Of a stretch of DNA of 37,821 bases, positions 19,611-33,151 are shown piece after piece. Source of the stretch: Sulfuricaulis sp. (lineage in GTDB: Bacteria; Pseudomonadota; Gammaproteobacteria; Acidiferrobacterales; Sulfurifustaceae); assembly GCA_024654125.1 (NCBI GenBank), contig JANLIC010000060.1, positions 1-37,821 on the forward strand. The letters run 5' to 3'. Position 1 is the first letter of the stretch, and the number at the start of each line of letters is the position of its first letter. The position numbers and the translations under genes are program-made. The notes under the pieces were generated by a model. That model searched no databases. It had not been told where the DNA came from and worked only from the letters and a program-made list of their open reading frames with translations.

Positions 19611-20213
19611 CTACCTGGCTGTGGTGGCCAGGGACTGATACCACTGATGCATGCGTTCCACTTCGCTCTCGAGATGCTTTCTGTCAGCATTATTCTCGAT
19701 CACATCATTCGCCTGTTGCAGCCGTTGTGCACGTGTGGCCTGTGCTGACATGATTTTGCGTATTTCCGGTTCGCTGAGTCCGGTGCGCGCGGTGGTGCGC
19801 TGGATCTGGACATTCTCAAAGGTGTCCACCACCAGCACACGATCCACCAGATCGGTAAAACCGGATTCGACCAGAAGCGGCACCACGACGATGACATAAG
19901 CCGCCTCCAGCGCAGCGAGCTTCTCCCGCACGATAGCGCGAATGCGTGGATGCAGAATATTTTCGAGGCGCCGGCGATCATCGGCGTTGTCGAAGACCCG
20001 CTCACGGAGTTTGTCGCGGTTGATTCGGAGGCCTTCGTCAAGGATTTTATCGCCGAAAATCCGGACGATTTCAATGAATGCTTCCTGACCGGGTTCTGTC
20101 AGATTGTGTGCAATCTCGTCGGTATCGATGATCGGTACGCCACGCATGGCGAAGAGGGGCGCGATGGTGGACTTGCCACTGCCAATTCCACCGGTCAAGC
20201 CTACGCGCAACAT
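19611..20213 (-). CDS. coaE: Dephospho-CoA kinase
   Basis: CoaE phosphorylates dephospho-CoA, the last step of coenzyme A synthesis. The 200-aa protein begins MLRVGLTGGIGSGKST with the P-loop, followed by DTDEIAH, LENILHPRIR, and VPLLVESGF, all typical of the family. It is the last gene of the minus-strand pilB-pilC-pilD-coaE group, 10 bp after pilD, the same grouping as in Pseudomonas and other Gammaproteobacteria. The yacG gene often found after coaE is absent here; argJ converges instead. Confidence 0.96.
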   Translation of the reverse strand: MLRVGLTGGIGSGKSTIAPLFAMRGVPIIDTDEIAHNLTEPGQEAFIEIVRIFGDKILDEGLRINRDKLRERVFDNADDRRRLENILHPRIRAIVREKLAALEAAYVIVVVPLLVESGFTDLVDRVLVVDTFENVQIQRTTARTGLSEPEIRKIMSAQATRAQRLQQANDVIENNADRKHLESEVERMHQWYQSLATTAR

Positions 20214-20223
20214 GGGGATCGGG

Positions 20224-21108
20224 TCAGTAGCCGATACGCGCGAACTGGAGGTAGTGACTGGTCAGGGTATCCCCCCACATGAGCGCGATCCATCCGGCCA
20301 CACACAGAAACGGCCCGAAAGGAATGGGCAGGCGCCGGTCATGGCCGAAGTACAGAATGAAGCTTATTCCCACGATGGCGCCAACCAAGGAAGATAGCAA
20401 TATGATCAAGGGCAGGCTCTGCCAACCGAGCCATGCCCCCAAAGCGGCAAACAGCTTGAAATCCCCATAGCCCATACCCTCTTTCCCCGTCGTCAGCTTG
20501 AACAGCTGATAGACCATCCAGAGAAAGAGGTAACCACTGACGGCTCCGATTACTGCGTCGAACAGCGGCGTAAAAACGGCGAACGCATTCAGGATCAATC
20601 CCCCCCACAGCAGCGGGAGGGTGATATCGTCCGGCAAAAGCTGACGGTCAAAATCAATAAAGCTGAGTGCGATCAAGCACCAGGTCAGCGCCATGGCGAA
20701 CAGCGCGGCGACCCCGTATCCGAAATGCCAGGCGACGGCCACTGTCAATCCGCCGGTCAAGAGTTCAACGAGGGGATAACGCCGGGAAATGGGTTTGCCA
20801 CAGGCCGAGCATCTACCCCGGAGCCAGATGAAACTCAGAACGGGAATGTTTTCGAGCGCCGTGATGGCATGGCCACAATGTGGACAGCTTGAGCCCGGCA
20901 CCACCAGATTAAACCGTTTCTTGGCTTTCAGCGGTTTTTTATTTGACTTGAGAATTTCCCGGCACTGGCTCTGCCACTTCCGCTCCAGCAGAATCGGAAG
21001 ACGGAAAATGGCGACGTTCAGAAAACTGCCAATCGCCAGTCCGAAGACACCGGCGATCCAGGGAAATGCGGCGGGGTAGCTGGTGAAGAAAGCGGAGATG
21101 TCACTCAT
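20224..21108 (-). CDS. pilD: Prepilin peptidase / N-methyltransferase
   Basis: PilD is the bifunctional inner-membrane aspartic protease that cleaves and N-methylates type IV prepilins and type II secretion pseudopilins. The 294-aa protein has the N-terminal IGSFLNVAIFRLP, the four-cysteine cytoplasmic zinc site (Cys75, 78, 100, 103 in SCPHCGH and CSACGKP), and the two aspartate motifs SFIDFDRQLLPDD and GMGYGDFKLFAALGAWLG (GxGD). About seven to eight membrane segments follow. The complete zinc site argues for a full bifunctional enzyme. Confidence 0.96.
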   Translation of the reverse strand: MSDISAFFTSYPAAFPWIAGVFGLAIGSFLNVAIFRLPILLERKWQSQCREILKSNKKPLKAKKRFNLVVPGSSCPHCGHAITALENIPVLSFIWLRGRCSACGKPISRRYPLVELLTGGLTVAVAWHFGYGVAALFAMALTWCLIALSFIDFDRQLLPDDITLPLLWGGLILNAFAVFTPLFDAVIGAVSGYLFLWMVYQLFKLTTGKEGMGYGDFKLFAALGAWLGWQSLPLIILLSSLVGAIVGISFILYFGHDRRLPIPFGPFLCVAGWIALMWGDTLTSHYLQFARIGY

Positions 21109-21159
21109 CGGGCGGGATTATGCCCGATGGGCTGCAACAAACACTACCCGCGGGAGAAA

Positions 21160-22386
21160 TCAGACAGTGGCCGCAAGCTTGAAGATTGGCAGGTACATGG
21201 CGACCACCAGACCGCCGATGACGATGCCGAGAAAGGCCATGATGATCGGTTCGAGGAGACTGGAAAGGCCTGCCACGGCGTCGTCAACTTCCTGTTCGTA
21301 GAAATCGGCGACCTTGCTGAGCATTTTATCGAGTTCGCCCGATTCCTCGCCGATGGCGACCATCTGCACCACCATGTTGGGGAAGAGGCCTGTCGAGTTC
21401 ATGGAAGCCTGCAACTGCATGCCGGTGCTGACGTCGGCTTTGATGGCCATGGTTCCTTCGTAGTAGACGCGATTACCTGAGGCTCCTGCCACAGAATCGA
21501 GGGCTTCCACCAGCGGAACGCCAGCGGCAAACATGGTGGCCAGAGTACGCGCAAACCGGGCAATAGTGGCTTTTTTGACAATTTCTCCAATGACCGGTGC
21601 TTTTAACAGAGCCCGATCCATCCCGTGCTGCATTTTTAAAGAACGTTTGTAAGAGTAACTGATGAAGATCACCGAACCGACAATCGCGCCGATGATAACG
21701 TACCACCAATCCTGGAACGATCTGGAAAGATTGATGACCATTCTAGTCAAGGCCGGGAGGTCAGCGCCGAAACCCGAAAAAAGGCTTTCAAACTGCGGAA
21801 TGACGAACACCAGCAAAACGGCGGTGATAATGAATGCCACCACGATAACCGCCGTTGGATAGAACAGCGCGGATTTAATCTTGCCTTTAATGGCCTCGAT
21901 TTTTTCCTTGTAGGTGGCGACCTTGTCCAGTATGCCGTCCAGGATGCCGGCCTGTTCGCCAGCCTGCACCAAGTTGCAATACAGGGCATCGAAATAGAGC
22001 GGATGCTTGCCGAGGGCCTGGGTCAGGTTAGTGCCTGACTCTACATCTTGCTTGATGGACATAATTACTTCTTGCATCGACGGGTTTTCATGCCCTTTGC
22101 CGACGATGTCGAAAGATTGTGCCATGGGAATGCCCGAAGCCAGCATGGTGGCTAATTGACGCGTGAATATAGAGATATCCTTGGTGGTGATTTTTTTCTT
22201 GAATTTGAAGGCCGCTTTACGTTGTTTGGCCACCTTGACGGGGTTGATTCCCTGACGGCGCAGGGTGGCATTCACGTAAGCGACGCTCGCCGCTTCCATG
22301 AGGCCCTTGACCTTCTTTCCCTGTTTATCGACACCTTCCCAGCTGAAGGCGTCGAATTTGGGTTTCTTGACCGCTGCTTGTGCCAT
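21160..22386 (-). CDS. pilC: Type IV pilus inner-membrane platform protein PilC
   Basis: PilC is the inner-membrane platform that couples the assembly ATPase to pilin polymerisation. The 408-aa protein has two GspF domains, each with a cytoplasmic helical bundle and membrane segments. Motifs include FTRQLATMLASGIPMAQSFD near residue 78 and its repeat FARTLATMFAAGVPLVEALD, then GEESGELDKML and a hydrophobic tail with LEPIIMAFLGIVIGGLVVAMYLPIF. Length is family-typical. It starts 3 bp after the pilB stop, consistent with one operon. Confidence 0.95.
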   Translation of the reverse strand: MAQAAVKKPKFDAFSWEGVDKQGKKVKGLMEAASVAYVNATLRRQGINPVKVAKQRKAAFKFKKKITTKDISIFTRQLATMLASGIPMAQSFDIVGKGHENPSMQEVIMSIKQDVESGTNLTQALGKHPLYFDALYCNLVQAGEQAGILDGILDKVATYKEKIEAIKGKIKSALFYPTAVIVVAFIITAVLLVFVIPQFESLFSGFGADLPALTRMVINLSRSFQDWWYVIIGAIVGSVIFISYSYKRSLKMQHGMDRALLKAPVIGEIVKKATIARFARTLATMFAAGVPLVEALDSVAGASGNRVYYEGTMAIKADVSTGMQLQASMNSTGLFPNMVVQMVAIGEESGELDKMLSKVADFYEQEVDDAVAGLSSLLEPIIMAFLGIVIGGLVVAMYLPIFKLAATV

Positions 22387-22389
22387 GGT

Positions 22390-24114
22390 TTACTCGTTGG
22401 TTGCCGTCTCAACTTCTTCCAGGCTAGTAATGCCTTGTTTGACCTTCATCAAGCCTGCCTGCCGCAAATCAGGAACGCCATCTTTCCTGGCCTGCAGCTC
22501 GATATCCAGTTGGTTGCCGCCACGCATGATAATGGCGCCGATTTCTTCCGATACCGGCATGACCTGATAAATACCCACACGTCCTTTATAGCCGCTATTG
22601 CAGGCATCGCAACCAACCGGTCCAAAAACAGCAAGGCCTTTTATATCCTCTTCCCTGAACCCGGCCTTGAGCAGGGCCGGCTTGGGGATGTCGACAGGTT
22701 TCATGCAGTGCTGACACAGGCGTCGCGCCAGGCGCTGGGCGATGATCAGGTTGACCGCCGAGGCGATATTGAAAGGAGGCACGCCCATATTCGCGAGACG
22801 CGTCAACGTGGAAGGGGCGTCATTGGTGTGCAGGGTGGAAAGCACCATGTGGCCCGTCTGCGCCGCCTTGATGGAGATCTCGGCGGTTTCGAGGTCGCGG
22901 ATTTCACCGACCAGAATAATATCTGGGTCCTGGCGCAGGAAGGCGCGCAATGCTGAGGCAAAGTTGAGCCCTGTTTTTTCATTGATATTGACCTGATTGA
23001 CGCCGGTCAGATTGATTTCCACCGGATCTTCCGCCGTGGAAATATTATTGTCCGGTGTATTGAGGATATTCACACCCGTATAGAGAGTGACGGTTTTGCC
23101 ACTACCGGTCGGGCCGGTGACGAGCACCATGCCGTAGGGACGGTGAATGGCCTCGAGGAAAAGTTCTTTTTGAAAATCCTCGAACCCCAGTTTTTCCACA
23201 CCGAGCGTGGCCGAGGTGGGGTCGAGAATACGCATAACGATTTTCTCGCCCCATAGCGTCGGCAATGTACTGACGCGGAGGTCGATCGCACGGTTTTTCG
23301 AGATGCGCATCTTGATGCGGCCGTCCTGCGGGACGCGCCGCTCCGCGATATCGAGTCTGGAAAGAATTTTGATACGTGCCGCGATGCGCATTGACAGTGT
23401 TATCGGTGGATTGGCAACTTCGTACAGTATGCCATCCTGCCTATAGCGCACACGGTAGATTTTTTCATACGGTTCAATGTGAATATCCGAGGCGCCGCGG
23501 TTGATAGCGTCCATCAGGATCTTATTGACGAATTTGACGACGGGAGCGTCGTTAATGCCTTCTTCACCGGCGACACTACCCCCATCCTTCTTGTCTTCAT
23601 CGCCGGCGATAATTTCGAGGTTTTCAAGGCTGTCATCGCCCGCAAGATCGGAAAGGCTGGTGTCCTGGGCATCGAGAGATTTTTCTATGATGGCTGCAAG
23701 TTTGGATTCTTCGACCAGAATCGGTTCCGTGCCCAGTCCCGTATGAAATTTTATTTCGTCCAGCGCTTGCAGGTTGGTGGGATCGGCGACCGCAACAAAG
23801 AGTCTCGTGCCACGCTTGAACAGGGGTAGAACATGATGCCGCCGAATGATTTTTTCGTCGACCAGTTTGACCGGGGCCATTTCCAAATCGAGCGAATTAA
23901 TTTCATAAAGTGGGATGCCGAAATCGTCGGACGCCACTTTGGCAATGGTCGCGCTGTCGAGTTTCTTGCTCTCGACCAGTTGCGTGACAAAGGAGGTTTT
24001 CTTGGATAGCGCTTCTGCTTGAATGCGTTCCGCATCGGTCGGACTGAGCAAATTGTCGCGCACCAGCCTCAGTGCGAGGCCGCTCAGGTTGCTTGCCGTG
24101 GTTGCGGTTGCCAT
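22390..24114 (-). CDS. pilB: Type IV pilus assembly ATPase PilB
   Basis: PilB is the hexameric cytoplasmic ATPase powering pilus extension. The 574-aa protein has a GspE N-terminal domain, the conserved ASDIHIEPYE start of the ATPase core near residue 208, Walker A GPTGSGKT near 334-341, the Asp box, Walker B ILVGEIRDLETAEI, the His box TGHMVLSTLHTNDA, and a C-terminal tetracysteine zinc site (CQHCMKP and CDACNSG). No pilA lies beside it. The ATG lacks a strong ribosome-binding site. The promoter at 24162-24190 lies about 48 bp upstream. Confidence 0.96.
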   Translation of the reverse strand: MATATTASNLSGLALRLVRDNLLSPTDAERIQAEALSKKTSFVTQLVESKKLDSATIAKVASDDFGIPLYEINSLDLEMAPVKLVDEKIIRRHHVLPLFKRGTRLFVAVADPTNLQALDEIKFHTGLGTEPILVEESKLAAIIEKSLDAQDTSLSDLAGDDSLENLEIIAGDEDKKDGGSVAGEEGINDAPVVKFVNKILMDAINRGASDIHIEPYEKIYRVRYRQDGILYEVANPPITLSMRIAARIKILSRLDIAERRVPQDGRIKMRISKNRAIDLRVSTLPTLWGEKIVMRILDPTSATLGVEKLGFEDFQKELFLEAIHRPYGMVLVTGPTGSGKTVTLYTGVNILNTPDNNISTAEDPVEINLTGVNQVNINEKTGLNFASALRAFLRQDPDIILVGEIRDLETAEISIKAAQTGHMVLSTLHTNDAPSTLTRLANMGVPPFNIASAVNLIIAQRLARRLCQHCMKPVDIPKPALLKAGFREEDIKGLAVFGPVGCDACNSGYKGRVGIYQVMPVSEEIGAIIMRGGNQLDIELQARKDGVPDLRQAGLMKVKQGITSLEEVETATNE

Positions 24115-24161
24115 CGTGGTGAATTCAGGTAAGCGTCACTGCTTTTGTACTGAATCTAACA

Positions 24162-24190
24162 AATATAGTTTAGATATCTGTGCACGCCAA
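24162..24190 (-). promoter_or_regulatory. Probable sigma-70 promoter of pilB operon
   Basis: On the minus strand TTGGCG (24190-24185) is followed after exactly 17 bases by TATATT (24167-24162). This gives a transcript starting about 40 bases before the pilB ATG and reading pilB-pilC-pilD-coaE. Confidence 0.55.
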
Positions 24191-24417
24191 TTCATTTTTT
24201 ATCCTGTATTCCAGCAGTTACGCACGTATATCGAAAATCCAGAGGTCATTATCGTTCATTGGCTTTACCTGAATCCCACCGGTCATTGTTGGGGGGCGAG
24301 CAGGCCACCCAGCGGCCTGACAGTTAAGGGAAACAACCCAAGGAAGACTCGCAAACATGAGAATAGTCAGATTCTCTTCAATCTCAATTTAGTGTTGCCG
24401 TAGAGTAAGCATGGCTA
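24191..24417. other. pilB-rubrerythrin intergenic region
   Basis: This middle part of the 447-bp gap between divergent pilB and rubrerythrin holds no supported gene. It has two perfect 6-bp inverted repeats: CAGGCC-ACCCAGC-GGCCTG (24301-24319) and GAGAAT-AGTCAG-ATTCTC (24359-24376). The second could be a protein-binding site because AGATTCTC recurs between the rubrerythrin -35 and -10. The track ORF 24023-24403 overlaps pilB and is not credible. Confidence 0.5.
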
Positions 24418-24447
24418 TTGACAGGAGATTCTCGCATGATTTAGAAT
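24418..24447 (+). promoter_or_regulatory. Strong sigma-70 promoter of rubrerythrin gene (P1)
   Basis: A consensus -35 TTGACA (24418-24423) and -10 TAGAAT (24442-24447) are separated by 18 bases. Transcription would start near 24454, giving a leader of about 108 bases. The -10 lies inside a palindromic operator, so the promoter is probably strong but repressed under normal conditions. Confidence 0.7.
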
Positions 24448-24457
24448 AGTTCTAAAT
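24439..24457 (+). promoter_or_regulatory. PerR/Fur-type palindromic operator over the rubrerythrin -10
   Basis: ATTTAGAATAGTTCTAAAT is a perfect 8-3-8 palindrome covering the -10 and start region. Its TTAGAAT-A-GTTCTAA core follows the 7-1-7 pattern of PerR boxes (TTATAATNATTATAA) with few changes. A peroxide-responsive Fur-family repressor is the natural candidate for a rubrerythrin operon. Another regulator is possible, and no regulator gene is in this window. Confidence 0.6.
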
Positions 24458-24477
24458 ATAAATTCGTGTTTGATGCA

Positions 24478-24526
24478 TTGTTTCAAATCAATGAATTTAA
24501 GTGGAATTATTTTTAAATTCATGTCT
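24478..24526 (+). promoter_or_regulatory. FNR-like box and possible second rubrerythrin promoter (P2)
   Basis: TTGTTTCAAATCAA (24478-24491) matches TTGAT-N4-ATCAA at 9 of 10 defined bases. TAAATT at 24514-24519 would serve as -10 with a start near 24526, placing the box centre at -41.5, the class II activator spacing. The same DNA forms ATGAATTTAA/TTAAATTCAT (24491-24500 and 24513-24522), a perfect 10-bp inverted repeat, in P1 transcripts. Confidence 0.4.
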
Positions 24527-24561
24527 TTATCGATAACCGACTGAAAACGAGGAGTTTCATC

Positions 24562-24984
24562 ATGACCAAGCTCAAAGGAAGCAAGACCGAAGGTAATCTC
24601 AAGGCTGCCTTCTCCGGTGAATCCCAGGCCAATCGCCGATACCTGTATTTTGCCGCCAAGGCCGACGTCGAAGGCTACAACGATGTGTCAGCGGTATTTC
24701 GCTCCACGGCGGAAGGCGAAACGGGGCATGCGCACGGTCATTTGGAATATCTGGAGCAATGCGGCGACCCGGCCACGGGCCTCCCGATCGGCGCGACAAC
24801 CGAGAATCTAAAAGCCGCCATCGCTGGCGAAACCCATGAATACACCGACATGTATCCGGGCATGGCCAAAGCGGCGCGCGATGAGGGCTTTGCTGAAATC
24901 GCGGATTGGTTCGAGACCCTGGCCAAGGCCGAGCGTTCGCATGCCAATCGGTTCCAGAAGGCACTCGACACCTTAGGGAAGTAA
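24562..24984 (+). CDS. Rubrerythrin-family diiron protein lacking rubredoxin domain
   Basis: Rubrerythrins reduce hydrogen peroxide at a diiron centre in the cytoplasm. The 140-aa protein is only the four-helix ferritin-like domain. It carries the carboxylate and histidine ligands Glu20 (SGESQAN), Glu53/His56 (EGETGH), Glu90/Glu93 (AGETHEY) and Glu124/His127 (AERSH). The C-terminal rubredoxin iron site of classical rubrerythrin is missing, so electrons must come from another protein. The Fe-S protein encoded next is a candidate (inference). The ribosome-binding site is GAGGAG. It is controlled by P1, a PerR-like operator and a possible FNR-type site. Confidence 0.93.
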
Positions 24985-24998
24985 TCTGTCATGCCATA

Positions 24999-25033
24999 CG
25001 GGGCCGGATGTTCGGCCCCGATATCTTCCTTTC
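24999..25033 (+). terminator. Hairpin terminator or attenuator after rubrerythrin
   Basis: CGGGGCCG (24999-25006), a 6-base loop and CGGCCCCG (25013-25020) form a perfect 8-bp GC stem followed by the moderately T-rich ATATCTTCCTTTC. Because the next gene follows in the same direction without a clear promoter, partial termination giving more rubrerythrin than downstream product is likely. Confidence 0.6.
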
Positions 25034-25062
25034 AATGTATTTAGCTCATTGACACAATAAGC

Positions 25063-26409
25063 ATGACTCCAGACTCAGACGAGCGACGCGAAGGCAGTCT
25101 CCAGGCACCAACGCGGCATCCATTGGGTTGGCTCGGGTCGGGGTTTTACGACGAAAGTTCGCTCATGAAGGAACTCGAGCGCGTTTTCGAAATTTGTCAT
25201 GGTTGTCGACGCTGCGTGAGCCTGTGTCATTCCTTTCCCACCTTGTTCGATCTTGTCGACAATTCACCTACCCTGGAAGTTGACGGGGTCAAAAAGGACG
25301 ACTACTGGCAGGTCGTTGAACACTGTTATCTCTGCGACTTGTGTTTCATGACTAAATGTCCGTATGTGCCGCCGCACGAATGGAACGTGGATTTCCCGCA
25401 CCTGATGCTGCGCGCCAAGGCCGTGAAGTTCAAAAAGGGCGATGTTAAGAAGCGTGACAGGTTGCTCACCAATACCGACAGGGTGGGAAAACTGGCCGGT
25501 GTCCCGGTGGTGGCGCAGGTTGTGAATGCCGCGAACCGATCCGGTATCATGCGAAAATTGCTGGATAAGGTTCTGGGCGTGCACCCGCAGGCGCTATTGC
25601 CTGAGTACCACAGCAATACTTTACGCAAACGCTTAAAGAACCTTAAAAGTGATGGCCTGAATGCCGTACCGGCAGGACGCACGCGCGGCAAAGTCGCCCT
25701 GTTTGCCACTTGTTACGGTAACTTCAACGAGCCGCCTATCGGTGAAGATCTGATATCCATATTTGAACACAATGGCATTCCGGTGACGTTGGTCGAAAAG
25801 GAACAATGCTGTGGCATGCCCAAACTCGAACTGGGCGATTTGGAGGCCGTCGTGCGTGCCAAGGAGGCTAACATTCCGGAACTGGCGAAACTCGTGGACG
25901 CGGGTTGGGATATTGTCGCACCGGTACCGTCCTGCGTGCTCATGTTCAAGCAGGAACTGCCGCTCATGTTCCCCGACGATCCCGATGTGGCCAAGGTCAA
26001 GCACGCCATTTTCGATCCGTTCGAATATCTGATGTTGCGGCACAAAGAGGGGAAATTGAAAACCGATTTCAAGAACGGGCTGGGATCCGTGTCTTACCAT
26101 GCACCGTGCCACCAGCGCGTCCAGAATATCGGACCCAAGACCCGCGAAATGTTAAGCCTTGTTCCCGATACCGAAGTCGAAACCATCGAGCGCTGTTCCG
26201 GGCACGACGGAACCTACGCGGTCAAAAGCGAGTGTCACGAGATTTCCATGAAGATCTGCCGTCCGGTGGTGAACCGCGTGCAGCAGGCGAAACCGAATCA
26301 TTATTCCAGTGATTGCCCCATGGCCGGACACCAGATTGAGAATGGGCTGAAAAACGGGCAAAAACCGGAGCACCCACTGACGCTGTTGCGAATTGCCTAC
26401 GGACTTTAA
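25063..26409 (+). CDS. Heterodisulfide reductase/GlpC-like iron-sulfur oxidoreductase
   Basis: This 448-aa protein has two N-terminal cubane-cluster motifs (Cys45/48/51/55 in CHGCRRCVSLC, and Cys88/91/94/99 in CYLCDLCFMTKC), then two CCG-type domains. The first contains CYGNF and CCGMP, the second HAPCHQ, CSGHDGTYAVK and DCPMAGHQ. This is the HdrD/GlpC-like layout, a soluble or peripheral electron carrier without its own flavin. The second CCG site reads CSG, not CCG. It lies 78 bp after rubrerythrin, beyond the hairpin, and 17 bp before the ferritin-like gene. I infer that it passes electrons to one of these diiron proteins. The start codon has no strong ribosome-binding site. Confidence 0.88.
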   Translation: MTPDSDERREGSLQAPTRHPLGWLGSGFYDESSLMKELERVFEICHGCRRCVSLCHSFPTLFDLVDNSPTLEVDGVKKDDYWQVVEHCYLCDLCFMTKCPYVPPHEWNVDFPHLMLRAKAVKFKKGDVKKRDRLLTNTDRVGKLAGVPVVAQVVNAANRSGIMRKLLDKVLGVHPQALLPEYHSNTLRKRLKNLKSDGLNAVPAGRTRGKVALFATCYGNFNEPPIGEDLISIFEHNGIPVTLVEKEQCCGMPKLELGDLEAVVRAKEANIPELAKLVDAGWDIVAPVPSCVLMFKQELPLMFPDDPDVAKVKHAIFDPFEYLMLRHKEGKLKTDFKNGLGSVSYHAPCHQRVQNIGPKTREMLSLVPDTEVETIERCSGHDGTYAVKSECHEISMKICRPVVNRVQQAKPNHYSSDCPMAGHQIENGLKNGQKPEHPLTLLRIAYGL

Positions 26410-26426
26410 TTCTGAGGACGATTGTC

Positions 26427-26732
26427 ATGGCCAACGAAGGTTATCACGAAGCACTCAAAGACCTGTCTGAGGAAACCCGGGACATGCACCGCGCCATCGT
26501 ATCGCTGATGGAGGAATTGGAGGCCGTGGACTGGTACAACCAGCGTGTCGACGCCTGCCAGGACAAGGAGCTGCGCGCCATCCTTGCCCACAACCGGGAC
26601 GAGGAAAAAGAACATGCGGCGATGGTGCTCGAATGGATCCGTCGCCATGACAGGCGATTCGATGAAGAGCTGAAGGATTACCTGTTTACCCGGAAACCCA
26701 TTGCCGGTCTGGAGCACAAAAGCAAGAAGTGA
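26427..26732 (+). CDS. EncFtn-like (encapsulated ferritin family) protein without cargo peptide
   Basis: The 101-aa protein closely resembles the encapsulated ferritin of Rhodospirillum rubrum as I recall it: HRAIVS, MEELEAVDWY, RVDA and ILAHNRDEEKEHAAM. The ferroxidase and entry-site residues correspond: Glu29, Glu30, Glu32, Trp36, Glu60 and His63 here for Glu31, Glu32, Glu34, Trp38, Glu62 and His65 there. EncFtn works as a decameric ring of dimers oxidising Fe(II) inside an encapsulin shell. This protein ends KPIAGLEHKSKK soon after the helical pair, without the SLSIGSLKG-type targeting tail, and no shell gene is nearby. The ribosome-binding site GAGGA precedes ATG 26427. Confidence 0.88.
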   Translation: MANEGYHEALKDLSEETRDMHRAIVSLMEELEAVDWYNQRVDACQDKELRAILAHNRDEEKEHAAMVLEWIRRHDRRFDEELKDYLFTRKPIAGLEHKSKK

Positions 26733-26736
26733 GTCG

Positions 26737-27366
26737 ATGATGAATCAAAATTCCGGTCAAACAATCGAGAACCCTGTGATGAAAAAGTTGACGCGTGACG
26801 ATCTCTTTCCGCTGGAGAAATATTCCGAGCTGCGTGCCGGATTCCGTAACAAGGTGATGGCGCACAAGCATGACCGCCAGGTGGCCATCGGCCCGAATGC
26901 CACGTTGTATTTCGAAGACCGTCTGACGATGCAGTATCAGGTGCAGGAGATGCTCCGCATCGAGCGGATTTTTGAGGCCGAGGGTATCAGCGACGAGCTC
27001 GCCGTCTACAACCCCATGATTCCGGACGGCAGCAACTGGAAGGCGACATTCATGGTTGAGTTCCCAGACGAGGACGAGCGCCGTGAGGCCCTGAAACGCT
27101 TGAAGGGTGTGGAAAACCGGGTGTGGGTGCGCGTGGCCGGTTTCGAGTCGGTGCGATCGCACGCGGACGAAGACATGGAGCGCGAAGACGAGGAAAAAAC
27201 CTCCGCCGTCCATTTTCTGCGCTTCGAGTTGACGCTTGACATGGTCAAGGCGATCAAGCAGGGCTCCGCCGTGGCCATGGGTGTCGATCATCCGGCCTAT
27301 ATGCATCAAGTCGATCCCATCCCGACGAGCGCGCGGGACTCACTGGCAGCCGACTTGTCGGATTAA
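26737..27366 (+). CDS. DUF3501 family protein
   Basis: This 209-aa cytoplasmic protein belongs to a conserved family of unknown function (DUF3501) recognisable by KLTRDDLFPLEKY, NATLYFEDRLTMQYQVQEMLRIERIFE and the C-terminal acidic region. It has no membrane segment and no cysteine or evident metal motif. The ORF track begins at TTG 26701 inside the ferritin-like gene. I take ATG 26737, just after that stop; ATG 26779 (MKKLTRDDL) is also possible and matches where the conserved part begins. As I recall, the family tends to occur beside rubrerythrin and HdrD-like Fe-S genes, which is the case here. Confidence 0.85.
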   Translation: MMNQNSGQTIENPVMKKLTRDDLFPLEKYSELRAGFRNKVMAHKHDRQVAIGPNATLYFEDRLTMQYQVQEMLRIERIFEAEGISDELAVYNPMIPDGSNWKATFMVEFPDEDERREALKRLKGVENRVWVRVAGFESVRSHADEDMEREDEEKTSAVHFLRFELTLDMVKAIKQGSAVAMGVDHPAYMHQVDPIPTSARDSLAADLSD

Positions 27367-27444
27367 CCACCACCCATCGGACTTGCTGTCAACCGCGTCG
27401 GGCAAACGGCGGTGCCCCGCCTCGTGCAAGGTGTGCATCTGCTG

Positions 27445-27460
27445 TATACTCCGCGCCCGA
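27445..27460 (+). promoter_or_regulatory. -10 element with GC-rich discriminator before CNP1-like gene
   Basis: TATACT (27445-27450) is followed by CCGCGCCCG and then the ATG at 27460. Transcription would start about 3 bases before the ATG. No good -35 is visible. The spacing is identical to that before truA. Confidence 0.4.
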
Positions 27461-28029
27461 TGCAAGGAGCCACGCGTTCTGCCGTTCGGTGTATCAGGAA
27501 AAATATATTTTTCTTCGGACGCCTGCTGTTGTCCATGATGCTGATCGCCGCCGCTATTCCGCTTCAGGCAAAACGCGACCAGCACGGAACCGAACCGGAA
27601 TACTTCGAATTCGACGAGAGCCAGGTCGAAAAGTGGCAGGAGAGCAAAGCCAACTTTCCACCTTTTCCGAAGGAGCAGGAGTTTCTCCCAGTGGCCCTGC
27701 CTGTCACGGACACCCTCAAAGTATTTATTGACCGCGCGTCCCTCTCGCGTGGAACTGATCGAGTCGCCCGGTTTACGCTTGTGGTGCAAAGCCCTTCCGG
27801 CGCACGCAGCGTTTTCTACGACGGCATTCGTTGTGAAACCCGGGAATACAAGACATATGCCATTGGTACCCCGGAACACGTCTTTACGCCGACCACAAAC
27901 GCCCAATGGCGCCGGATCCCCCAGCCTGCGCTGAATGCTTTTCGCTACGAACTCTATCGTTACTACATCTGCGATGAGCAATCCTCCGCCCGGTCCCCTG
28001 AGGAGCTCGTGCGGTTATTGACGCAATAA
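27460..28029 (+). CDS. CNP1-like family exported protein
   Basis: The 189-aa product (from ATG 27460) has a positively charged N-terminus and a hydrophobic segment FFFGRLLLSMMLIAAAIPLQA that looks like a signal peptide cleaved after QA, so it is probably periplasmic. The mature part (FPKEQEFLPVALPV, VFIDRASLSRGTDRVARFTLVV, SPSGARSVFYDGIRCE) fits the CNP1-like family, whose function is unknown. Two cysteines (CETRE and YYICDE) could form a disulfide. The track start at 27412 would place the promoter inside the gene. ATG 27460 has no ribosome-binding site and may be read from a near-leaderless mRNA. Confidence 0.75.
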   Translation: MQGATRSAVRCIRKNIFFFGRLLLSMMLIAAAIPLQAKRDQHGTEPEYFEFDESQVEKWQESKANFPPFPKEQEFLPVALPVTDTLKVFIDRASLSRGTDRVARFTLVVQSPSGARSVFYDGIRCETREYKTYAIGTPEHVFTPTTNAQWRRIPQPALNAFRYELYRYYICDEQSSARSPEELVRLLTQ

Positions 28030-28071
28030 CACCGATGAATTTTATTTAGTTTTAAATTTCGTCAATCGCCC

Positions 28072-29964
28072 ATGAGTGCCGCCTACGATTCCTCCGCGAT
28101 AGAAGTCCTGACCGGGCTCGAGCCGGTACGACGCCGTCCGGGCATGTACACCCAGACCGAACGCCCCAATCATCTCGCCCAGGAAGTCGTCGACAACAGC
28201 GTGGACGAGGCCATCGCCGGACACTGCAGCGCCATCGATGTCACGTTGCATGCGGACGGCTCCCTGTCGGTGGCGGACAACGGACGCGGCATGCCGGTGG
28301 ACAAGCACAAGGAGGAGGGCGTGTCGGGCGTCGAGGTTATCCTCACGCGCCTGCACGCCGGCGGAAAATTTTCGAATAAGAATTACACTTATTCCGGCGG
28401 TCTGCACGGCGTCGGCGTGTCGGTGGTCAACGCGCTCTCACATAAGCTGGAAGTGACGGTGCGGCGCAACGGCAAGGAATATCACATGTCCTATGCCGAT
28501 GGGCAGAAGACCTCCGAGCTCAAATCGGTCGGCAAAGCGGAAAAAAAGGTCACCGGCAGCATCATCCGATTCTGGCCCGATCAGCAGTTTTTCGACACGG
28601 TGAAATTTCATGTCCCGCGCCTGAAGCATGTGCTGCGCGCCAAGGCGGTGCTGTGCCCGGGCCTGTACATCAGCTTCACCCATGAAGCCGATGCCAAGGA
28701 CAACGAAGAGTGGCATTACGAAAACGGCCTCAAGGACTATCTGGAAACGCAGATCGAGGGCTGGGAGTACCTGCCGGCCGAACCCTTTGTCGGGCACCAC
28801 CAAGGCGATGATAGCGAGGTCGACTGGGCCATCGTGTGGCTGCCGGCGGGCGGTGAGCCAATCATGGAGAGTTATGTCAATCTCATCCCGACCACGCAGG
28901 ACGGCACGCATATCAACGGATTCCGCGCCGGCCTGACCGATGCCATGCGCGAGTTTTGTGAATTCCGCGATCTTCTGCCACGCGGAGTGAAGCTCGCGCC
29001 CGAAGACATCTGGGGCAAGTCGAGTTATGTTTTCTCGCTCAAGTTGCGCGATCCCCAGTTTTCCGGACAGACGAAGGAGCGCCTGACCTCGCGCGAGGCC
29101 GCGGGTTTAGTGCAAGGCGTGACCAAGGATGCCTTCAGTCTGTGGCTTAACCACCACGTGGGCGATGCCGAAAAGATTGCGGCGCTGGCGATCGAATCCG
29201 CGCAGGAACGCCAACGCGCCGATAAAAAGGTGGCGCGCAAGAAAATCGGCACCGGCCCGGCCTTGCCCGGCAAGCTCGCGGATTGCGTGGCGCAGGACTT
29301 GTCACGCACCGAGCTGTTCCTGGTGGAGGGTGATTCCGCCGGCGGTTCGGCCAAACAGGCGCGCGACCGTGAATTCCAGGCCATCATGCCGCTGCGCGGC
29401 AAGATTCTGAATACCTGGGAAGTGGAATCGGCCGAAGTATTGGGATCACAGGAGGTGCACGACATCGCCGTGGCTTTGGGGGTTGACCCGGGCTCCAGCC
29501 ACCTGGAAGGACTGAGATACGGCAAGGTCTGCATCCTTGCTGACGCCGATTCCGACGGCGCCCACATCGCGACACTCCTTTGTGCCCTGTTCGTGCGCCA
29601 TTTCCGGCCGCTGGTGGCGGACGGCCGCGTGTGCGTCGCCATGCCGCCGCTGTACCGCATCGACGTGGGCAAGGAAATCCATTACGCGCTCGACGACGAG
29701 GAGAAAGCGGTAATCCTCAAACGCATTGAATCGAACGGTTCGCGCGCCAAACCGGTGGTCACGCGCTTCAAGGGCCTGGGCGAGATGAACCCCGACCAGC
29801 TGCGCGTAACCACCATGGACCCGAAAACGCGCCGTCTGGTGCAACTGGAAATCCAGTCCGGCGACAACACCAACAAGTTGCTCGACATGCTGCTCGGCAA
29901 GAAACGCGCCTCCGACCGCAAGAACTGGCTCGAGAAGAATGGTAACAAGGCAGAGGTCATCTAG
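28072..29964 (+). CDS. parE: DNA topoisomerase IV subunit B
   Basis: ParE supplies the ATPase and TOPRIM parts of topoisomerase IV, which unlinks daughter chromosomes. The 630-aa protein has the same length as E. coli ParE. It shows the GHKL ATPase motifs (EVVDNSVDEAIAG, DNGRGMPVD, YSGGLHGVGVSVVNAL), the topo IV-type NRTELFLVEGDSAGGSAKQA variant (SRTELFLVEGDSAGGSAKQ), the DADSDGAHI aspartate cluster and GLGEMNPDQL. The ATG at 28072 lacks a ribosome-binding site. TAAATT at 28053-28058 may be a -10. Its TAG overlaps the GTG start of the next gene. Confidence 0.97.
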   Translation: MSAAYDSSAIEVLTGLEPVRRRPGMYTQTERPNHLAQEVVDNSVDEAIAGHCSAIDVTLHADGSLSVADNGRGMPVDKHKEEGVSGVEVILTRLHAGGKFSNKNYTYSGGLHGVGVSVVNALSHKLEVTVRRNGKEYHMSYADGQKTSELKSVGKAEKKVTGSIIRFWPDQQFFDTVKFHVPRLKHVLRAKAVLCPGLYISFTHEADAKDNEEWHYENGLKDYLETQIEGWEYLPAEPFVGHHQGDDSEVDWAIVWLPAGGEPIMESYVNLIPTTQDGTHINGFRAGLTDAMREFCEFRDLLPRGVKLAPEDIWGKSSYVFSLKLRDPQFSGQTKERLTSREAAGLVQGVTKDAFSLWLNHHVGDAEKIAALAIESAQERQRADKKVARKKIGTGPALPGKLADCVAQDLSRTELFLVEGDSAGGSAKQARDREFQAIMPLRGKILNTWEVESAEVLGSQEVHDIAVALGVDPGSSHLEGLRYGKVCILADADSDGAHIATLLCALFVRHFRPLVADGRVCVAMPPLYRIDVGKEIHYALDDEEKAVILKRIESNGSRAKPVVTRFKGLGEMNPDQLRVTTMDPKTRRLVQLEIQSGDNTNKLLDMLLGKKRASDRKNWLEKNGNKAEVI

Positions 29965-30401
29965 TGCCAACCATCAAGACGGCCATCAACGTTGCCACGT
30001 CGGCGGAAATTGTTTGGCGTGTGCTGACTGATTTTAACGCCTATCCGCACTGGAACCCTTTCCTGGTTGCCGTCTACGGACCCCCGGTGCCGGACCAGCG
30101 ACTGAAAATCCAGGCGCGTTATTCGCGCGGAGAAACATCGCAGTTTTCGGTGCGTGTGGTAAAGGCAATCCCCGCTACTGAACTGCGCTGGCGCCGACGA
30201 CGCGTGCTCGAAGGGATCTTCGACCGCGAACAGGCATTTTTCATCATCCCGAACGGCATCAAAGGCGTGCGCTTCATCCAGCGCGAGCACTTCTCCGGCG
30301 TGCTGGCATCGCTGATAATGCCTTTTATTTCTAAAAAAACACTTAAGGCATTCAGCCTGATGAATTTGGCGTTGAAACGAACTGCCGAAGCGAAACGCTG
30401 A
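29964..30401 (+). CDS. SRPBCC (START-like) domain protein between parE and parC
   Basis: This 145-aa protein fits the SRPBCC / polyketide cyclase-like fold family: an N-terminal strand [28 protein letters not shown], a central beta sheet, and a long C-terminal helix. These proteins bind hydrophobic ligands in a cavity; its ligand is unknown. The GTG start shares a base with the parE TAG, and its TGA overlaps the parC ATG, so all three genes should be translated together. No link between this fold and topoisomerase IV is known to me. The gene may be a passenger or a modulator. Confidence 0.85.
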
Positions 30402-32734
30402 TGGCCAAGAAAACCTCCACCAAGGCAAACACCGTCGGTAAAAAGCATGCTGGCAAGCGCGGCAAGGCGCAACCCATCGCGCGTCCACGCGCCGTCTCGA
30501 TCGAGCGCCTGCCACTCGCGGCCTTCACCGAAAAGGCGTACCTGGATTATTCCATGTACGTCATTCTCGACCGCGCGCTGCCGCACATCGGCGACGGCCT
30601 CAAGCCGGTGCAGCGGCGAATCATCTACGCCATGTCGGAGTTGGGCCTCAACGCCGCCTCCAAGCACAAGAAATCGGCGCGCACCGTGGGCGACGTGCTC
30701 GGTAAGTTCCATCCGCACGGCGACACCGCCTGTTACGAGGCCATGGTGCTCATGGCCCAGCCGTTCAGTTACCGTTATCCGCTGATCGACGGCCAGGGCA
30801 ACTGGGGCTCACCCGACGATCCCAAGTCGTTTGCCGCCATGCGTTATACCGAGTCGCGACTCACGCGCTTCGCGCAGATCCTGCTGTCCGAGCTCGAACA
30901 TGGAACGGTCGAATGGACGCCCAATTTCGATGGCACGCTGCAGGAACCGAAGATCATGCCGGCACGCCTGCCGCACGTACTGCTGAACGGCACCACCGGC
31001 ATCGCCGTTGGCATGGCGACAGATATTCCGCCGCACAACGTACGCGAGGTAGCCGCCGCCTGTGTGCACCTGCTCGAGGAGCCGGACGCCAGCTTCAAGG
31101 ATTTGTTCAAGCACATCAAGGGTCCGGACTATCCGACCGAGGCTGAGATCATCACGCCGAAGAGTGAAATCCGCGCACTCTACGAAACTGGCAACGGATC
31201 GATCCGGGCGCGGGCCAAGTGGGAGCGCGAGGACGGCGATATCGTCATTACGGCACTGCCGTATCAGGTGTCGGGCTCCAAGGTGATCGAGCAGATCGCG
31301 CAGCAGATGCAACTGAAGAAGCTGCCCATGGTCGAGGACTTGCGCGACGAATCCGACCACGAAAATCCGACGCGACTGGTGATCGTGCCACGCTCCAACC
31401 GCATCGACCCGGTAGAACTGATGTCACATCTGTTCGCCACCACCGATCTCGAGCGCAGCTACCGCGTGAACCTGAACATGATCGGCCTCGACGGCCGTCC
31501 GCGGGTGTACAACCTCAAGGACCTTCTCAAGGAGTGGATCAAGTTCCGTATTGAGACGGTGCGCCGGCGGCTCACGCACCGTCTTGAGCGTGTTTCGGCT
31601 CGCCTGCACATTCTCGACGGTCTGCTGGTCGTATTTCTGAATCTTGACGAGGTCATACGCATCATTCGCAACGAGGAGGAGCCGAAGCCCAGGCTCATGA
31701 AGCGTTTCAAACTGACCGAGACGCAGGCGGAGGCGATTCTCGACACCCGGTTGCGGCATCTGGCCAAGCTCGAGGAGATGAAAATCCGCGGCGAACAGGA
31801 TGAGCTGACCCGGGAGCGCCATCACCTGGAAAAAATCCTCAAGTCGGCGCGCTTGCTGAAGCAACGGGTGTGCGATGAGATCATCGAAGATGCCAAGGAA
31901 TTCGGTGATGTGCGCCGCTCGCCGCTGGTCGAACGCGAGGCCGCGCAGCAAATCGATCAGACGGCGCTGCTGCCGACCGAACCGATTAGCGTGATCCTTT
32001 CCGAAAAAGGCTGGGTGCGCGCCGCCAAGGGACACGACATGGATCCGCGTACGCTCGATTACAAGGCCGGCGATAAATTTCATCAGGCGGCGCGCGGCAA
32101 GAGCAATCAGCCGGCGGTATTCATCGATTCCACCGGCCGGACTTATTCTCTGCCGGCGCACAAGCTGCCCTCGGCGCGCGGCCATGGCGAACCCTTGAGT
32201 TCCAGTCTCAATCCGCCGGCCGGTGCCACCTGGGCCGGAGTAATCATGGGTAACCCGGAGGATCTGATTTTGCTGGCCACCGATGCGGGCTATGGCTTTG
32301 TCGCGAAACTCGAGGAACTGGTATCCAACAAGAAGGCCGGCAAGGCGGTGCTCAAGACGACGAAAGGCGCGAAAGTGTTGTTGCCGCAGCCGGTCACTGA
32401 CATTAAAAAGGATTCTCTCGCGGCCGTCACGACCACCGGCCAGATGCTGGTGTTCAAGGTCAAGGATCTACCGCAGATGTCGAAAGGAAAGGGGAACAAG
32501 ATTCTGAATGTTCCCAAGGCAAAATTTACCAAAGGCGAGGAAGCCTTGGCCGGCGTGGTTGTTCTGGAAGCAGGCCAGCAACCGATAATCCACGCAACCA
32601 AAGGAGAACTCACCGTTTCGCTGGAGAAAATTGAACAATACGAGGGAGAACGCGCCCAAAGGGGATCGAAGCTGCCGAAAGGGTATCAGGAAGTAAAGGC
32701 CATCGAAGTCAGAAAAAAGCCTGCCGCGGCGTAA
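30401..32734 (+). CDS. parC: DNA topoisomerase IV subunit A
   Basis: ParC is the DNA-cleaving subunit that pairs with ParE. The 777-aa protein has about 33 extra Lys/Ala-rich N-terminal residues before the winged-helix domain ([19 protein letters not shown]). The catalytic tyrosine is Tyr149 in [10 protein letters not shown]. The quinolone-determining helix reads [12 protein letters not shown], with Thr109 where E. coli has Ser80, and Glu113 conserved. The C-terminal beta-pinwheel carries degenerate GyrA-box-like repeats. The basic N-terminal tail could add DNA contact. The start overlaps the SRPBCC stop (TGATG). Confidence 0.97.
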
Positions 32735-32788
32735 TCGATTTTGCATCCTGATCGATAATGTATGCAGGCTCGCTGGAGTCGCCCGGTC

Positions 32789-33151
32789 ATGAATAAAACT
32801 AGCCTCATCTTCGTCTACAATGCCGACAGCGGGTTCGTGAACAGCCTGCTCGACATCGGCCACAAGATCGTCTCGCCGCAGACCTATTCGTGCAATCTCT
32901 GCGCCATTACCCATTCGGCCTTCAGCATGCGTGATGAATGGAAAAAATTCGTCGCCGGGTTGGGCGTCTCGGTGGAATTCCTACACCGGGATGAATTGGC
33001 GCAGCATTATGGCCTGAGTGGCCTGAAGCTTCCGGTGATATTGCGGAAATCAGAAGGCAAGGTGAGCGAGTGGATCAGCCGGGACGAGATAAACCATTGC
33101 CAGTCCCTTGCGGAGCTGTCACATCTCGTGGAAAAGAAACTCAAGACGTGA
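32789..33151 (+). CDS. Conserved small protein with CxxC motif, function unknown
   Basis: I know no named function for this protein. From ATG 32789 it is 120 aa: an N-terminal strand LIFVYNADSGFVNSLLDIGHK, then SPQTYSCNLCAITHSAF with a CNLC motif, a helix EWKKFVAGL, then VEFLHRDEL and a C-terminal helix. Similar small proteins, as I recall, occur in other proteobacteria and cyanobacteria. It is soluble with no signal peptide. The track start (32762) adds nine residues without support, and a GGAG lies about 14 bases before the chosen ATG. The CxxC may be a redox or metal site. Any thioredoxin-like fold is speculation. Confidence 0.7.
   Translation: MNKTSLIFVYNADSGFVNSLLDIGHKIVSPQTYSCNLCAITHSAFSMRDEWKKFVAGLGVSVEFLHRDELAQHYGLSGLKLPVILRKSEGKVSEWISRDEINHCQSLAELSHLVEKKLKT

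Follow-up and report, generated by a model that had tools for sequence, protein, structure and literature searches.

What does an encapsulin-type ferritin do in a cell in which no encapsulin shell can be found for it? The question is raised by a short gene in a 37,821-nucleotide stretch of Sulfuricaulis sp. DNA (contig JANLIC010000060.1 of assembly GCA_024654125.1, hereafter the window), whose product belongs to EncFtn, a ferritin family that is described and annotated as encapsulin cargo; most EncFtn copies in our sample of Pseudomonadota genomes have neither a cargo-loading tail nor a linked shell gene. We found that the window gene encodes a genuine EncFtn-family protein, and the comparisons below support a free-standing, non-cargo form, encoded within a rubrerythrin operon. 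The gene itself is:

26427-26732, forward strand: EncFtn-family ferritin-like protein, tail-less (class s-FLP), recognised by TIGR04535 above its cut-off, by PF22277 and by PDB 3K6C in both sequence and fold.

The open-reading frame begins with ATG and encodes 101 aa ending in KPIAGLEHKSKK. It exceeds the cut-offs of TIGR04535 (136.8 bits, curated cut-off 125, E = 2.8e-40) and PF22277 (146.6 bits, cut-off 27, E = 1.8e-43), which bears out a preliminary description of this DNA, made from its letters alone, that had recognised a 101 aa protein with an EncFtn core. The best solved relative is 3K6C (phmmer, 1e-45), followed by Rhodospirillum rubrum EncFtn (2.3e-36), and alignment with the latter, which the preliminary description had proposed as a check, upholds membership of the family far beyond chance. 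Residue numbers for R. rubrum were taken from PMC5012862 and transferred through the phmmer alignment (query position 4 equals R. rubrum position 6); the ferroxidase residues E30, Y37, E60 and H63, including the Glu30, Glu60 and His63 named earlier, are all present and correspond to R. rubrum E32, Y39, E62 and H65, and the entry pair E29/E32 and exit trio H55/E59/E62 are likewise retained. An AlphaFold2 model built from 18 relatives (pLDDT 87.8) predicts two long antiparallel helices (residues 15-43 and 47-74) and a short C-terminal one (76-86), and its top structural matches are 3K6C (TM 0.82-0.90, rmsd 1.4) and 5DA5. We also observed a cysteine at a helix-helix turn, Cys44 (window positions 26556-26558), which occurs in 94% of tail-less EncFtn proteins and is mostly replaced in six tailed ones.

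A screen for strict and minimal forms of the targeting motif matched none of 134 distinct tail-less EncFtn sequences, the window protein included, as its ending had already suggested in the preliminary description. Such proteins have a place in the literature: a 2024 review divided the encapsulin-type ferritins into four classes, one of which, s-FLP, is short and has no apparent targeting peptide, its structure 3K6C being a decamer that was solved as a crystal structure in 2009 from NE0167 of Nitrosomonas europaea (PMC11202242). As that review reports it, s-FLP was 'initially classified as non-encapsulated' by Giessen and Silver in 2017. The window protein has the EncFtn core, the length (class range about 95-100 aa) and the lack of a targeting peptide that define s-FLP, and because it belongs to this published class, a shell-less EncFtn is an already known kind of protein. 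In the open-access literature searched we came across no study of what a tail-less EncFtn does.

Shell genes were sought with the PF04454 (family 1) profile. In the genome to which the window belongs (2.43 Mb in 346 contigs, 87.7% complete), the whole-genome search for an encapsulin that had been called for earlier found none by PF04454, family 2 shells not having been searched, and none was seen among the window open-reading frames read (20000-33000). The absence of a shell is strong but not absolute, because the assembly is 87.7% complete. A sole PF04454 match, on a different contig from the window, scored 23.8 bits (25.2 with the neighbouring frame, cut-off 24.3) and was rejected as an encapsulin, being a prophage or phage capsid with the genes of a phage head around it (PHROG 771/264 capsid, 766 decoration, 477 head-tail adaptor). 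This capsid, decoration and head-tail adaptor module (L001; G000 contig 94, 17738-21325) is a case in which a phage capsid mimics a PF04454 encapsulin match. As the search covered the window and its only product lies elsewhere, the earlier statement that no shell gene occurs in the 37.8 kb stands. A congener, G404, which is 99% complete and carries the same operon with an 89%-identical EncFtn, gave no PF04454 match, and of 50 genomes with a close tail-less relative 49 gave none either; in the exception, G034, a separate EncFtn ending in SLGIGSLRGENS adjoins the shell gene. The preliminary description had called the protein free-standing rather than cargo, and this part is supported, given the 134 peptide-free sequences and the shells missing from G404 and the 49 genomes; the surprise that it implied does not, given the published s-FLP class and the 2009 structure.

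How tails and shells are distributed was quantified in 349 Pseudomonadota genomes, a sample less biased than our other sets, which were chosen by similarity to the tail-less query or by kinship. Strong EncFtn matches (E < 1e-20) occurred in 21 of these genomes, of which 19 (our own included) were tail-less and two tailed. Both tailed copies (G184, G278) directly adjoin an encapsulin, whilst in G101 and G121 a tail-less EncFtn is accompanied by an encapsulin elsewhere in the genome, unlinked. A divergent tail-less group was seen in G101, G121, G172 and G273 (L102-L105; ~39% identity, 104 aa, ending GEKKVD), in which the ferroxidase residues are retained and two positions of the exit site are occupied by N and K. 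Among 78 relatives examined, 46 carry EncFtn; the encapsulins of G409, G417 and G465 each lie ~15 bp after a tailed EncFtn and no encapsulin was found in the remaining relatives, the phage match aside. G465 holds both kinds, a tailed EncFtn with its shell on contig 5 and a 95 aa tail-less copy in a rubrerythrin operon on contig 18 (L145, L203), and so offers a natural paired comparison, or within-genome control. Every tailed EncFtn examined (G184, G278, G409, G417, G465 and G034) adjoins its own shell gene, and the best 80 matches among genome contigs are all tail-less, at 94-101 aa. In a tree of 140 EncFtn sequences, where ~100 aa provide few columns and most forks are unresolved, the tail-less copies from operons are not grouped in a single clade, supported branches forcing at least two changes, and the tailed copies likewise need at least two; the tree therefore shows neither that EncFtn entered the operon just once nor that the tail arose just once. 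What is newly contributed is this quantification, 19 tail-less to two tailed in 349 genomes, with every tailed copy examined beside an encapsulin.

The genes on either side of EncFtn, whose operon position was absent from the preliminary description, give it a setting:

24562-24984, forward strand: RBR, aerobic-type rubrerythrin, 140 aa, without a C-terminal rubredoxin domain (PF02915, 5.5e-30).
25063-26409, forward strand: RFO, GlpC-like Fe-S oxidoreductase with CCG domain, 448 aa (PF02754; NF008369 at 244 bits, below cut-off).
26740-27366, forward strand: DUF3501 protein, ~208 aa (PF12007, 3.5e-73).

The four genes run in the order RBR-RFO-EncFtn-DUF3501, and the gaps on both sides of EncFtn are short. 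The NF045767 match on RBR is limited to positions 1-144 of 194, and a rubredoxin-less RBR co-localised with RFO and DUF3501 is what characterises the aerobic-type rubrerythrin cluster of Cardenas 2016 (PMC5114695), in whose figure legend a 'hypothetical protein' appears and whose gene-context text names no ferritin. The fold of the DUF3501 protein was dropped as a functional clue, the sole match of its model being 3FJV, itself a structure without an assigned function. The survey of relatives proposed earlier, for tail-less EncFtn genes next to rubrerythrin, showed that the arrangement recurs: the EncFtn gene immediately precedes that of DUF3501 in 28 of the 46 EncFtn-bearing relatives and in about 10 of the best 80 matches, and all nine functional residues are intact in each of 36 operon copies. 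In the phylum sample the two genes are neighbours in two of 26 DUF3501-bearing genomes, so the four-gene form is common in the order and a minority in the phylum. For EncFtn genes outside the operon no conserved neighbours were found beyond antisense shadow open-reading frames.

Within the genus the presence of the gene is patchy. Five of nine genomes have no EncFtn, and RFO and DUF3501 are ~55 bp apart there; in G405 a copy is found elsewhere, outside the rubrerythrin operon. Counted over the congeners, six of eight rubrerythrin operons are without EncFtn and a seventh, in G399 (L192), holds only a 39-codon relic between RFO and DUF3501, which keeps the start and C-terminal tail with the ferroxidase core deleted and is loss in progress within the genus. 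Comparison of the window gene with that of G404 (dN 0.056 and dS 0.95, the non-synonymous and synonymous divergence; dN/dS about 0.06) indicates that EncFtn is under purifying selection.

Two predicted control elements precede the operon:

24418-24447, forward strand: sigma-70-like promoter TTGACA-18-TAGAAT, upstream of the operon (11 of 12 consensus positions; a consensus match only).
24440-24456, no strand assigned: 17-bp palindrome TTTAGAATAGTTCTAAA, an Irr-box/ICE-like predicted operator overlapping the -10 hexamer (pattern conservation).

The palindrome TTTAGAATAGTTCTAAA presumably resembles the published Irr box. It is the sole site in the window at two or fewer mismatches, and the pattern TTTAGANNNNNTCTAAA occurs within one mismatch at 11 of 12 RBR-RFO-EncFtn-DUF3501 operons, where shuffles give an expectation of 0; of 95 regions upstream of stand-alone EncFtn genes, none has it. 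As it also precedes RBR in EncFtn-free operons (G402, G409) and is absent from stand-alone EncFtn genes, the palindrome belongs to the rubrerythrin operon. A classical Fur box upstream of the operon was considered and rejected, there being no enrichment over shuffles. The whole genome contains just two sites within one mismatch, the operon promoter and the gene of an Irr-like FUR protein, where the second site (L232, 1501-1519, one mismatch) overlaps a TATAAT and the first ATG, as it does in G402 and G404. The best families of this protein, both at sub-cut-off scores, are IrrA and Irr, and it carries an HHH run (HXH). In alpha-proteobacteria Irr binds ICE boxes without haem and represses iron-storage genes at low iron (PMC7762939). 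The pair of palindromes points to an Irr-like regulon of very small size beyond the alpha-proteobacteria, predicted from sequence; the operon looks iron-regulated, and its shared promoter and putative operator, together with the co-operon placement of EncFtn, support a predicted joint expression of the four genes.

From these elements we arrive at a reading that we hold to be probable, in which the protein is a cytosolic, shell-free EncFtn ferroxidase ring, made with the rubrerythrin system and acting against Fenton chemistry, with Irr-like control predicted. Ten subunits would assemble into an open D5 ring, as in 3K6C and by analogy with R. rubrum EncFtn, and each antiparallel dimer would build a di-iron ferroxidase centre (E30, Y37, E60, H63) at which Fe(II) is oxidised. 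An open ring cannot store mineral, hence the Fe(III) would be freed locally or handed to the bacterioferritin of the cell, which is encoded in the genome. In parallel RBR would reduce H2O2 with electrons relayed by RFO, and the operon would lower both Fenton reactants, since EncFtn would oxidise Fe(II) whilst RBR reduces H2O2. An Irr-like FUR-family repressor probably sits on TTTAGA-N5-TCTAAA over the -10 hexamer and would be released when iron or haem is plentiful. We put forward only tentatively, and with some doubt, that the ring takes part in the work of the aerobic rubrerythrin system, in which, controlled by iron or haem in an Irr-like manner, it would remove Fe(II), possibly with H2O2 as oxidant, and pass the iron to bacterioferritin or rubrerythrin.

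Several observations weigh against the shell-free ferroxidase ring. The majority of tail-less EncFtn genes lack a conserved neighbour, within its own genus only two genomes out of nine (that of the window and G404) keep the gene intact in this operon, and the Irr-like protein falls under both Irr equivalog cut-offs (133 vs 150; 121 vs 170) and could sense peroxide instead. Outside its shell, R. rubrum EncFtn aggregated on iron loading (PMC5012862), so a partner or a low flux may be needed. The patchy presence in the genus, and the core-deleted relic of G399, are what would be expected of a gene that had entered the operon as a dispensable passenger and is now being lost, which we regard as very improbable for a gene with such a low dN/dS and all its functional residues, in an arrangement kept across several families of the order. 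Cargo status would require an unrecognised short C-terminal signal and a shell hidden in the 12% of the genome that is missing from the assembly, for which the 87.7% completeness leaves room; with the nearly complete G404 and 49 of 50 genomes of close relatives devoid of a shell match, and a standard peptide on every EncFtn that adjoins a shell, we give this hardly any weight.

Two further explanations turn on the operon itself. EncFtn could be a structural or electron-transfer partner of a rubrerythrin/RFO complex, its di-iron site a redox relay or second peroxidase rather than a means of handling iron; its third place among the four genes in 28 relatives, the GlpC-like electron carrier RFO and the preference of tail-less proteins for Cys44 would suit such a role. 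That cysteine is, however, equally conserved in copies outside the operon, the fully kept iron entry and exit residues of the operon copies fit iron flux, and the operon does without EncFtn in most congeners and most DUF3501-bearing genomes of the phylum sample, all of which makes the explanation unlikely. A neighbouring partner, to which the preliminary description had supposed that Fe(III) or electrons may pass, is in any case not obligatory, given how many congener operons lack EncFtn and how many tail-less genes lack conserved neighbours. Alternatively EncFtn might load or buffer iron for rubrerythrin, which requires a di-iron centre, or might depend on H2O2 for its ferroxidase reaction, rather than use O2 and supply iron storage. 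Which oxidant EncFtn prefers is not established (PMC7762939) and the common operon with its putative Irr-like control would agree with this, but EncFtn-free rubrerythrin operons are the majority, and we judge it improbable.

Little is new in the protein itself, whilst the operon and its putative Irr-like control are moderately novel. If EncFtn works unshelled, the accepted scheme of an oxidising EncFtn and a storing shell applies to no more than a part of the family, and an automatic name like 'encapsulin-associated ferritin-like protein' is misleading. Were the rubrerythrin-system reading true, EncFtn in Pseudomonadota would commonly act as a ferroxidase without a shell, and encapsulation would be the specialisation of a minority in that phylum. 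With its conserved palindrome, the rubrerythrin operon provides a concrete physiological setting in which the role of unshelled EncFtn may be probed.

Set against known systems, the window protein has its family, fold and ferroxidase, entry and exit residues in common with the FLP-TP proteins of R. rubrum (Rru_A0973, 5DA5) and H. ochraceum (5N5F), from which it differs in having no SLGIGSLR-like tail, no adjoining encapsulin gene and none found in the genome. The putative regulation parallels the Irr/ICE-box regulation of alpha-proteobacteria in combining an Irr-like FUR protein with the TTTAGA-N5-TCTAAA palindrome over -10 hexamers; it departs from it in the sub-cut-off scores, in the presence of two sites only and in its hosts, most of the relatives studied being gamma-proteobacteria, a group that does not usually rely on Irr. 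With the s-FLP protein NE0167 (3K6C) it shares ~80% identity over the solved core, the fold, the length class and the lack of a targeting peptide (PMC11202242), whilst carrying six additional C-terminal residues (101 vs 95 aa). Finally, the RBR, RFO and DUF3501 genes that flank EncFtn are the same three as in the Cardenas 2016 cluster (PMC5114695), to which the window adds a fourth gene, EncFtn, between RFO and DUF3501.
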